Assembly: GCA_009692665.1 (NCBI GenBank)
Contig: SHYT01000001.1
Coordinates: 124,001-188,000 of the forward strand
From: Dehalococcoidia bacterium
Lineage (GTDB): Bacteria > Chloroflexota > Dehalococcoidia > Lucifugimonadales > SHYT01
Direction: 5' to 3'
DNA length: 64,000 nucleotides
The notes under the pieces were generated by a model. It ran no database searches. It was not told the DNA's origin and saw only the letters and a list, made by a program, of their open reading frames with translations. This document shows, piece after piece, positions 2,248 through 22,523 of this stretch. Within the stretch, counting starts at the first letter, position 1. Every line of letters starts with the position of its first letter. A program made the position numbers and the translations under genes.

Positions 2248-3564
2248 GTGTCCTTTGCTGACGTCCAACGTCTGTTCCCCGTCACCACGCGCGCACTATC
2301 GAATGACCACCTGGAAATCGGCGGCCGTGACGTCACCACCATGGCCCGCGAGTACGGCACTCCGCTGTATGTTTTTGACGAGGACACGCTGCGCGCCCAG
2401 TGCCGCGACTTTGTGAAAGGCTTCGGCGCGCACTACCCAAAAGTCAAGGTCCTCTTTGCAGCCAAGGCCTACGTCAACCCCGCGCTCGCCAAGATTGTTC
2501 AAGAAGAGGGTCTGGGCATGGACATCGTATCCGGGGGCGAGCTCGCGGTCGCTCGCGTGGCGGCGTTCCCGCCTGAGCGCCTCTACTTCCACGGCAACAA
2601 TAAGCAGGCCCGCGAGCTTGACGACGCGCTTGCCTATGGCGTCGGCCGCATCGTGCTGGACAACATTGAAGAGTTGGAACGCCTCGAGAAGATCGCTGCT
2701 GAGCGCAAGGTCAAAGCCAATGTGATGGTACGCATCACTCCAGGCATTGATCCACACACGCACGCGCACACCACGACCGGCACGGTGGACAGCAAGTTCG
2801 GCTTTCCCATGTTGACTGGACAGGCGGAAGAGGGCGTGAAGCGCGCACTCGCCTCGCCGCACCTGAACGTTGTCGGTATCCATTTTCACCTTGGCTCACC
2901 CATCTTTGAGCTTGAGCCCTATGCGCTAGGCGTGGCGGTGGTCATGGACTTCGCCGCCAAGATGGTCGCCCACGGCCTGAACCTTGAGGAGTTTAGCCCC
3001 GGCGGCGGCTTCGCCATTAATTACTTGCGCTCCCAGCACGCCCCCGGCCCGGAACAGTATGCTGAGGTTATTGGCAACGCGCTCAAGCAGGCTTGCCAGA
3101 AACATCGCATCCAGCTTCCCACGCTGGTGCTGGAGCCTGGCCGTGCCATCGTCGGCCCTGCGGGCGTGGCCGTCTACACTGTGGGCTCCATTAAGCGCAT
3201 TCCCGGCGTCCGCACCTACGCCGCGGTGGACGGCGGCATGGGCGACAACATCCGTCCCGTGCTGTACGACGCCAAGTACGAAGCCGTCATCGCCAACCGC
3301 CTCAGCGCCAAGGAAGAAGAGACCATCACCATCGCGGGTAAATACTGTGAGTCCGGCGACGTGCTGGTCAAGGACGCCAACTTGCCGCGCCTGCAACAAG
3401 GCGACGTTGTGGTGATGCCTTCCGCTGGCGCCTACGCCCCTTCCATGGCTAGTGTCTACAACCTCAACCCACGGCCGGCCGTGGTGCTGGTCAAGGGCGG
3501 CAAGTCGCGCATCATCCGCCGCCGCGAGACTTACGAAGACCTCATGCGCAACGACGTGATCTAG
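2248..3564 (+). CDS. lysA: Diaminopimelate decarboxylase
   Basis: Catalyses the last step of lysine synthesis, meso-diaminopimelate to L-lysine plus CO2. It is a 438-residue fold-type III PLP enzyme. Visible: the PLP lysine in LFAAKAYVN, HFHLGS, the glycine-rich phosphate-binding block SPGGGFA, EPGRAIVGPAG, the dimer-interface active-site motif CESGDVL, and GAYAPSMAS near the end. Start is GTG 2248, preceded by AAGGAG. It is first in a tight run with chrA (19 bases later) and holB. Its presence means diaminopimelate is made, presumably for lysine, which says nothing by itself about peptidoglycan. Confidence 0.95.
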   Translation: MSFADVQRLFPVTTRALSNDHLEIGGRDVTTMAREYGTPLYVFDEDTLRAQCRDFVKGFGAHYPKVKVLFAAKAYVNPALAKIVQEEGLGMDIVSGGELAVARVAAFPPERLYFHGNNKQARELDDALAYGVGRIVLDNIEELERLEKIAAERKVKANVMVRITPGIDPHTHAHTTTGTVDSKFGFPMLTGQAEEGVKRALASPHLNVVGIHFHLGSPIFELEPYALGVAVVMDFAAKMVAHGLNLEEFSPGGGFAINYLRSQHAPGPEQYAEVIGNALKQACQKHRIQLPTLVLEPGRAIVGPAGVAVYTVGSIKRIPGVRTYAAVDGGMGDNIRPVLYDAKYEAVIANRLSAKEEETITIAGKYCESGDVLVKDANLPRLQQGDVVVMPSAGAYAPSMASVYNLNPRPAVVLVKGGKSRIIRRRETYEDLMRNDVI

Positions 3565-20039: not shown

Positions 20040-20444
20040 ATGCACCTTGCCTTGGACGGGTACACCCCGGAATACGAAAAGCTGAGGGACGCTTCCTTTG
20101 TGGAGCAGTTCCTGAACAATTTCCCAGCCTCTATTGGTATGACCAAAATTACCAAACCAATGGTAATGACGTACCATGCTCCCATCCAGAAGGACTGGGG
20201 TGTGACGGGCGTCGTCATAATTGCGGAAAGCCACATTAGCATCCACACGTTCCCGGAACGCAACTTGGTCTACCTGGACGTGTTCTCATGCATGCCATTC
20301 GATGCTGACCTGGTGCAGCGCCGCCTGACCGAGGCGTTCAACCTCACCCGCGCCGTGCCTTATCGCATGGAGCGCGGCTTGGAGCACTACAACGAGGAGT
20401 ACGCCCAGGAAGCCGCCAACGCGCGGATAACGCAGCGCGCGTAG
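20040..20444 (+). CDS. speD: AdoMet decarboxylase-like pyruvoyl enzyme, possibly arginine decarboxylase
   Basis: SpeD-family proenzymes cleave themselves at a Glu-Ser bond to form a pyruvoyl cofactor. The 134-residue protein has the cleavage site and active site AESHISIHTFPE and the cysteine motif DVFSC. It differs from classical SpeD in HTFPE (for HTWPE) and SCM (for TCG), and has a distinct N-terminal block (IGMTKITKPMV). It ends six bases before an agmatinase gene, with no spermidine synthase nearby. SpeD homologues with arginine or ornithine decarboxylase activity are known in bacteria and archaea, so an arginine-to-agmatine role is a strong alternative to AdoMet decarboxylation. Confidence 0.85.
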   Translation: MHLALDGYTPEYEKLRDASFVEQFLNNFPASIGMTKITKPMVMTYHAPIQKDWGVTGVVIIAESHISIHTFPERNLVYLDVFSCMPFDADLVQRRLTEAFNLTRAVPYRMERGLEHYNEEYAQEAANARITQRA

Positions 20445-20450
20445 CGTTCG

Positions 20451-21353
20451 ATGACGTCTCCCCGGCTCCCACCCGAGGTTTTCACCCCCTCCAACTTCCT
20501 GGCGCTTGAGCCTGACCAGTCCTCATTCGATACCTCCCGCGTCGTGCTGCTTCCCGTCCCGTACGATAGCGCCAGCTCCTTCCGCAGCGGCGCCCGAGAA
20601 GGCCCTCGCGCCATCATCGAAGCGTCCCGCCACCTGGAGGATTTTGACGACGAGCTGAAGCTGGAGCCATGCACCGCAGGTATCCACACGTTGCCCGAAT
20701 TGGAAATGCACGCGGGCAGCCCCAAGGCCATGTCCCAGCGCGTCACGCGTGTGATTACCCCGCTCGCTGACGCCGGCAAGCTCGTCGGCACCCTTGGCGG
20801 CGACCACTCGTTAACCGCGGGGGCAGCAGAAGCCTTCCGCCGCAAATACCCAGACCTCTCCGTGCTCTACCTGGACGCCCACGCAGACCTCCGCGACAGT
20901 TACCAGGGCAGTCGGTACAGCCACGCCTGCTCCGCCCGCCGCATTCATGAACACTCTCCGCTCGTGCTTGCAGGCCAGCGCAGCCTGTGTACAGAAGAGT
21001 GGGAGTATATCCAGGCGCGGCGCATCCCCTTCTACCCGTGGACAGAGCCACAAAATATTGAAACCGCGGCGAAGGCCATACGCCAACGCCTCTCCCAGCA
21101 CGTTTATATAAGCATAGACCTGGACGTACTGGACCCGGCGCTGATGCCAGCGGTCGGAACGCCGGAACCGGGCGGCATGACGTGGCACGAAATGCTGACC
21201 ATACTGCGCACCGTTGCCGCCAGCAAGACTATCGTCGGCTTTGATGTGATGGAGCTTGCGCCCTGGGCGGGCCCACCCGCATGTGCGTATACAGCCGCCA
21301 AGCTAGTGTATAAGCTCATTGGGTACGCTCTCTTCGGGAAGCCCGCGAGGTAA
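20451..21353 (+). CDS. speB: Agmatinase (ureohydrolase family)
   Basis: Manganese enzyme that hydrolyses agmatine to putrescine and urea. The 300-residue protein has the binuclear metal motifs in order: GGDHSLTAG, DAHADLRD and the closing SIDLDVLDPALMPAVGTPEPGG. The start is six bases after the speD-like stop and has no clear ribosome site of its own, which suggests coupled translation. Other ureohydrolases (arginase, guanidinobutyrase) share these motifs, so the exact substrate is inferred from context. Confidence 0.9.
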   Translation: MTSPRLPPEVFTPSNFLALEPDQSSFDTSRVVLLPVPYDSASSFRSGAREGPRAIIEASRHLEDFDDELKLEPCTAGIHTLPELEMHAGSPKAMSQRVTRVITPLADAGKLVGTLGGDHSLTAGAAEAFRRKYPDLSVLYLDAHADLRDSYQGSRYSHACSARRIHEHSPLVLAGQRSLCTEEWEYIQARRIPFYPWTEPQNIETAAKAIRQRLSQHVYISIDLDVLDPALMPAVGTPEPGGMTWHEMLTILRTVAASKTIVGFDVMELAPWAGPPACAYTAAKLVYKLIGYALFGKPAR

Positions 21354-21381: not shown

Positions 21382-22523
21382 GTGGGGTTCGGTCCAGCAA
21401 TTCAAATCGCCAAAATCTTTGGCATCCCTATCAAGATCAGCTTAAGCTGGCTAGTCATCCTCGCCCTCGTCACCTTCTCTCTTGAACAGGAGCTTAACTT
21501 CTTCTACCCGCGCTGGTCATTCCTGGAGGTCTGGAGTACCGCCGCTGCCGCCGCCGTCCTCTTCTTCGCATCCGTCATCACCCACGAGTTGAGCCACAGC
21601 CTGCTCGCTATCCGCAAAGGTATTCCTGTGCACGGCATCACCCTCTTCATCCTGGGTGGTGTCTCTCAGCTTGACCACGAGGCCCCAAACCCCCTCTCAG
21701 AGTTCCTGGTCGCCATCGTTGGCCCCCTCTCCAGCCTGCTGCTGAGCGCACTCTTCTTTGGACTGATGCTGCTTGTAAAGCCGCTGAACGCCCACGCCGA
21801 AGCACTCTTCCTCATTCTCACCCAGACCAATCTGGTGCTCGGCCTCTTCAACTTCGCGCCCGCATTCCCGCTGGACGGCGGCCGCGTGCTCCGTGCAGCA
21901 CTCTGGCACTTCACCCGCAGTCGTCGCCGGGCCACCACCATTGCCGGACGCATCAGCCAGGGCTTTGCCGTGCTCATGATAGGTGCAGGCCTGTTTTACG
22001 GGACTGTCTTCTCCGATGGCTCGCTGCTGTCCGGATTGTGGCTCGTGCTCATTGGCTGGTTCTTGTTCACAACCGCATCGCAGAGCATGCGCCAAGAGCA
22101 TGTGCAAGACGAGCTGTCCTCTCTCCACGCCCGCGATATCGTCGCTGCGAACGTGCCCGTACTTGCCGAGCAGGATACCGTGCAGAGCGCCGCCGCCGCA
22201 CTGCTACGCTCCCATACTCCCTTTATCCTGTTGCAGACCAGGGCGTCGTCACCAGCCTGCTGCTCCCCTCCACCATCCGCAAGCTTCCACGCACCGTGTG
22301 GAGCGCTGCTCAAGTCAGCCCCCTGGCAGTGGCCATCTCTCGATTGCCCACCGTCGCGCCAGACGCGCCTGCATCCCGGGTGGTGGAGCTGCTCGCAGAA
22401 ACCAACGCTACCACCATTGTCGTCTCCGACCAGTCTGCATTCCACGGAATTGCCACGCAAGAAAGCATCCGCTCCGTCCTCCGCCAGCTCCAGCAGCTGG
22501 GCCTCCACCGCAACTCCAGCTAA
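21382..22523 (+). CDS. M50 site-2-type protease with CBS domains, frameshifted
   Basis: Intramembrane zinc metalloprotease of the CBS-linked SREBP site-2 family. From GTG 21382 (GAGGTG upstream), HELSHS gives the zinc motif at H68, E69 and H72. NFAPAFPLDGGRVLRA near residue 155 supplies the third ligand. The CBS region starts at HARDIVAANVPVL and is lost in frame after HTPFIL; the family continuation (PVADQGVVTSLL to RNSS) resumes in another frame and ends at 22523. One missing C near 22226-22229 would restore a protein of about 380 residues. It lies 28 bases after agmatinase. Confidence 0.85.

Follow-up and report, generated by a model that had tools for sequence, protein, structure and literature searches.

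Where a homologue of the AdoMet decarboxylase SpeD is encoded in a genome without speE, or occurs as a second SpeD beside a single speE, it decarboxylates arginine (SpeDA) or ornithine (SpeDC) (Li et al. 2023, PMC10407285). Genomes with SpeDA or SpeDC have no canonical arginine or ornithine decarboxylase, and SpeDA is accompanied by SpeB or by AguA/AguB (PMC10407285). SpeDC proteins carry four diagnostic residues, Gln, Thr, Phe, and Tyr, and SpeDA is marked by the loss of a Pro residue (gamma-Pro) that is conserved in all AdoMet decarboxylases (PMC10407285). In Vampirovibrio chlorellavorus, two speD genes are clustered with speE and speB, and the assayed SpeD2 proved to be an arginine decarboxylase; the SpeD of “Candidatus Marinimicrobia” is another example of SpeDA, and the Chloroflexota protein assayed, SpeD2 of Anaerolinea thermophila, is a SpeDC (PMC10407285).

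Here we describe a gene for a SpeD homologue, referred to as SpeD2, and an adjoining agmatinase gene in a 64,000-nucleotide stretch of the genome of a Dehalococcoidia bacterium (contig SHYT01000001.1; hereafter, the window). The pair is in all likelihood a further instance of the SpeDA system (Li et al. 2023, PMC10407285), leading from arginine through agmatine to putrescine. As with SpeDA of Vampirovibrio and Marinimicrobia, which come from two-speD/one-speE genomes or from clusters of speD with speB, the Ser, His, and Cys residues are kept, the adjoining gene encodes an agmatine-using enzyme, and family searches of the genome found no canonical arginine or ornithine decarboxylase. Unlike the published examples, the speDA-speB pair of the window lies apart from speD1-speE; none of the proteins assayed in PMC10407285 is from Dehalococcoidia, and here the substrate is predicted from the genes.

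The SpeD2-agmatinase gene pair

The open reading frames (Table 1) bear out the tight coupling of a SpeD-like gene to an agmatinase gene that had been described in an earlier, sequence-only reading, and the two genes are probably co-transcribed. In profile searches, SpeD2 matches the AdoMet_dc family (PF02675) over the whole profile with an E value of 5e-25, whereas its score with the AdoMet decarboxylase equivalog model TIGR03330 (68.6 bits) is below the cut-off of 75.65 bits. Alignment places its Ser64, His69, and Cys84 at S63, H68, and C83 of the Thermotoga maritima enzyme, and because of these matches both self-cleavage and decarboxylation should work; the conserved residues point to Ser64 as the probable cleavage site of the proenzyme. 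There is no Pro at the position of T. maritima P51, and the Pro of the HTFPE motif is kept. The HTFPE, DVFSCM, and IGMTKI motifs on which the sequence-only reading drew are all present. Its description of the active site as non-classical fits the surroundings, where HTFPE stands in place of HTWPE and DWGVTG, together with an insertion of two residues, in place of PYGVSG of class 1b AdoMet decarboxylases (the SpeD proteins of T. maritima and B. subtilis), but not the catalytic residues, all three of which are retained. SpeD2 thus shares the fold and the self-cleavage residues of class 1b enzymes and differs from them in its subthreshold equivalog score and in being encoded alongside a separate AdoMet decarboxylase in its own genome.

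The product of the second gene belongs to the PF00491 family (E value of 6e-67) and exceeds the TIGR01230 (agmatinase SpeB) cut-off, scoring 232 bits versus 174.3 bits. The closest solved structure is 3pzl, an agmatine ureohydrolase (E value of 1e-36), and the metal-binding motifs GGDHS, DAHAD, and DLDVLDP are all intact. It is a full-length protein with no notable departure from the SpeB family, and its substrate is predicted to be agmatine or aminopropylagmatine. Arginase was considered as an alternative assignment and rejected on the basis of the arginase profile score (103.5 bits versus the cut-off of 227.6 bits).

Table 1. Features of the SpeD2-agmatinase gene pair (window coordinates)
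Feature	Position	Strand	Details
SpeD homologue SpeD2, predicted SpeDA (pyruvoyl-dependent arginine decarboxylase)	20040..20444	+	ATG start, 134 aa; PF02675, TIGR03330 (below cut-off), tree
SpeD2 Ser64 codon, predicted self-cleavage site (E63/S64) giving the pyruvoyl group	20229..20231	+	Invariant alignment column; T. maritima S63
SpeD2 His69 codon, processing and catalysis	20244..20246	+	T. maritima H68
SpeD2 Cys84 codon, processing and catalysis	20289..20291	+	T. maritima C83
Agmatinase (SpeB/AUH)	20451..21353	+	ATG start, 300 aa; 6 bp past the SpeD2 stop codon; TIGR01230, PF00491
Agmatinase GGDHS metal-ligand His	20805..20807	+	Motif at residue 116
Agmatinase DAHAD metal-ligand motif	20874..20888	+	Motif at residue 142
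Agmatinase DLDVLDP metal-ligand motif	21117..21137	+	Motif at residue 223

Judging by the translations, groES and groEL lie upstream of the pair on the opposite strand, and genes that encode a protease of the M50 type and a cysteine desulfurase lie downstream. The same order (groEL-groES, speD2-agmatinase, M50, NifS-like) is found in a Dehalococcoidia metagenome-assembled genome from Baikal (L005; 73% identity), and this agreement likewise points to Dehalococcoidia as the origin of the window. The M50-type protease gene of the window (21382-22523) has an apparent frameshift near position 22206. Its single-frame match extends only over residues 1 to 275 of the 379-aa relative in L005, and a CBS-like tail seems to run on in another frame, through either assembly error or decay. 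Genes for M50-type proteases are located near SpeD2-agmatinase loci throughout the class (L098, L101-L103, L105, L108-L110, L112, L120, L122, L123, L127, L128, and others).

Other polyamine genes in the genome

The source genome of the window (G000; 1.58 Mb, 91% complete) contains exactly two PF02675 genes, one for SpeD2 and one, on contig 21, for a protein referred to as SpeD1. With its one speE gene, it shows the “two speD, one speE” pattern by which SpeD-derived arginine or ornithine decarboxylases were traced in PMC10407285. SpeD1, whose gene adjoins speE, scores 139.5 bits as an AdoMet decarboxylase and by this score is a true member of that family. The earlier statement that no spermidine synthase is near the pair therefore holds locally but not for the genome, where speE sits on contig 21 with the second speD.

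Family searches of this 91% complete genome detected no PvlArgDC, OKR_DC_1 decarboxylase, agmatine deiminase, or deoxyhypusine synthase. The sole PF02784 gene is lysA (window positions 2248-3564; 473.7 bits), and the sole arginase-family (PF00491) gene is the agmatinase gene next to speD2. The case for the absence of another arginine or ornithine decarboxylase is strong but not complete, with approximately 9% of the genome missing. The search suggested in the sequence-only reading, for speE together with a separate arginine decarboxylase, thus returned speE alone.

Phylogeny and substrate-signature residues

In a tree of 83 SpeD sequences (130 columns; many inner forks unresolved), SpeD2 of the window groups with 35 other Chloroflexota SpeD2 sequences, nearly all of them from Dehalococcoidia (98/91). 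This group forms a single clade (99/90) with SpeD2 encoded in the GenBank entry MW495066 and with a fusion of SpeD2 to deoxyhypusine synthase. A split (99/97) divides the SpeD2, SpeDC-like, and pelagiphage proteins, all on one side, from SpeD1 and the T. maritima and A. aeolicus sequences, and this separation from AdoMet decarboxylases favors the arginine decarboxylase reading. Within the former set, the SpeD2 clade of the window stands apart from both the SpeDC-like and the pelagiphage sequences. The assayed SpeDA of pelagiphage HTVC201P, obtained from phage records, represents one of several independent origins of SpeDA and does not group with SpeD2 of the window. The Vampirovibrio/Marinimicrobia branch is represented by a proxy, SpeD2 of MW495066, which is not the assayed protein itself but comes from a speD-speD-speE-speB cluster that fits the Vampirovibrio description.

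MW495066.1 (L068, L193) is filed as Microcystis phage MaAM05. The 49.5 kb that were read carry proS, aspS, lepA, purL, ftsH, and a tRNA, as well as the complete speD-speD-speE-speB cluster, and because of the former genes the entry looks like a misfiled piece of a bacterial chromosome.

The probable alignment columns of the four SpeDC residues of PMC10407285 were taken from the SpeDC-like Chloroflexota sequences of L130-L132, with tandem pairs of the Anaerolineae type serving as SpeDC examples. The signature fits SpeD of L132, which stands alone, and also, in L130 and L131, where speD-speD-speE form tandem clusters, the second SpeD. On the columns so mapped, SpeD2 of the window has the Tyr only and lacks the Gln, Thr, and Phe (VVIIAESH...HTF...YLDVFSC versus VQLIETS...HFA...YIDIFSC in L130). 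The fourth position is occupied by Tyr in SpeD2 of the window and in its nearest relative, from L005, and by Asn in most relatives. SpeD2 thus resembles the SpeDC of Anaerolinea thermophila in its AdoMet decarboxylase fold, its phylum, and its status as a second SpeD, but differs from it in three of the diagnostic residues, in its clade, and in its agmatinase neighbor.

Linkage with agmatinase in Dehalococcoidia

SpeD2 is encoded in 111 of 294 Dehalococcoidia genomes. An arginase-family gene is present in 98 of these carriers, compared with 47 of the 183 non-carriers (Fisher p = 3e-27, relatedness ignored). Among 60 SpeD2 neighborhoods, the agmatinase gene comes immediately next in 32, is separated from speD2 by a deoxyhypusine-synthase-like gene in 15, and is found further on in 3. 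One of these approximately 50 linked neighborhoods, L129, is doubtful, its match being weak and 6.9 kb distant, and the count leaves out a further one, L092, which was overlooked because of an overlapping open frame. Its recurrence throughout the class places the pairing far outside what chance would produce, and the conserved linkage favors the coupling of an arginine decarboxylase with agmatinase, as previously suggested for the window.

In both cases tested with Pfam, the in-between gene belongs to the deoxyhypusine synthase family (PF01916), to which the homospermidine synthase SpeY belongs. The order at those loci would therefore be speDA-speY-speB, with the same gene content as in published clusters.

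The other 13 carriers, some of which are incomplete genomes, have no arginase-family gene. Agmatine deiminase, considered as a substitute for agmatinase, was found in none of these 13. Families f44 and f71 repeatedly lack the arginase-family gene; carriers with neither enzyme include G034, G061, G108, and G119 (f44) and G120, G143, G164, G197, and G235 (f71).

Predicted fusion proteins

Several Chloroflexota loci (L136-L142; f92, f114, and f116) contain one long open frame in which a SpeD2-type domain is joined to a divergent deoxyhypusine-synthase-like domain (e.g., L137:1694-3292, minus strand). Both PF02675 and PF01916 were confirmed in L137 and L139, and the genomes G359, G408, and G345 also have a stand-alone PF01916 gene. 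It is possible that these frames encode a natural arginine decarboxylase-homospermidine synthase fusion, a combination of which no description was found in the literature searched. In a different fusion, found in f133, the branched-chain polyamine synthase domain BpsA_C (PF01861) is combined with an AdoMet decarboxylase domain in a 507-aa protein. This architecture was assigned by domain search in L149 (1025-2548, plus strand) and by equal length and a SpeD1 match in L159 (2483-4006, minus strand).

Proposed pathway and alternatives

The SpeD2 proenzyme would be cut before Ser64 to generate the pyruvoyl group, and the mature enzyme would convert L-arginine to agmatine, a substrate to which the phylogeny, the linkage, and the missing alternatives all point. 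The agmatinase, to judge from its family, would then release putrescine and urea from agmatine, and the separate SpeD1 and SpeE of contig 21 would provide for aminopropylation of putrescine to spermidine. The arginine-to-putrescine module put forward in the sequence-only reading is therefore supported by the tree, by the agmatinase linkage, and by the lack of other arginine or ornithine decarboxylase families in the searches. What was not right was to set this module against spermidine synthesis: since the genome has speE with its own ordinary SpeD, the putrescine most likely proceeds to spermidine, and the pair is most likely the front end of that pathway.

The order of the later steps could be different, with the arginine decarboxylase unchanged: SpeE might aminopropylate the agmatine made by SpeD2, and the agmatinase might act on N1-aminopropylagmatine to yield spermidine without free putrescine, as in the Thermus/Thermococcus type of pathway. 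Given that agmatine serves as a substrate for 17 of the 18 bacterial spermidine synthases tested (PMC11107197), and that the genome has speE, speD1, and a single ureohydrolase gene, this variant deserves attention. We still consider it rather unlikely, as the ureohydrolase is well above the agmatinase cut-off and as, in many relatives, the SpeD2 and agmatinase genes flank a SpeY-family gene whose product would need putrescine for homospermidine synthesis.

A change in the first step appears improbable. Were SpeD2 an ornithine decarboxylase of the SpeDC type, it would produce putrescine directly, and the agmatinase would serve some other purpose or act as an ornithine-supplying arginase, both activities being found in one family. 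There is a proven SpeDC in the same phylum, that of Anaerolinea thermophila (PMC10407285), and SpeD2 has the Tyr of the fourth diagnostic position; however, the Gln, Thr, and Phe seen in the SpeDC-like proteins of L130-L132 are missing, the clade is a separate one, and the neighbor is by score an agmatinase and not an arginase. The chance that SpeD2 is a second AdoMet decarboxylase seems very slight indeed. Its fold and catalytic residues are identical to those of that enzyme, but SpeD1 scores far above the cut-off that SpeD2 fails to reach, the two fall on opposite sides of the 99/97 split, and SpeD2 is linked to agmatinase and not to speE. What speaks against the preferred reading, SpeDA followed by agmatinase, is the Tyr at the fourth diagnostic position in SpeD2 and its L005 relative, together with the 13 carriers that have neither an arginase-family gene nor agmatine deiminase.

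Implications

Homology-based annotation tends to label proteins such as SpeD2 as AdoMet decarboxylases, leaving a gap at arginine decarboxylase. Recognizing SpeD2 as SpeDA closes the putrescine pathway for more than one-third of the sampled Dehalococcoidia genomes (111 of 294) and suggests that the arginine route, beside the ornithine-type SpeDC of Anaerolinea, is widespread in Chloroflexota. The presence of SpeD1 and SpeD2 in one cell also offers a clean system for studying the residues that switch the substrate. Enzymes of the SpeDA kind are known and the swap of substrate has been proven in other bacteria; what is new, and well supported, is the Dehalococcoidia lineage and how widely the class carries it. 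On a bolder and, taken as a whole, rather unlikely reading, Dehalococcoidia would harbor a large, previously undescribed SpeDA lineage that ranks among the chief sources of putrescine in the class. Its product would enter spermidine synthesis by way of speD1-speE or homospermidine synthesis by way of SpeY, and related Chloroflexota would have the enzyme joined to a deoxyhypusine-synthase-like domain; within the genome of the window, agmatine might even reach spermidine through N1-aminopropylagmatine without free putrescine.
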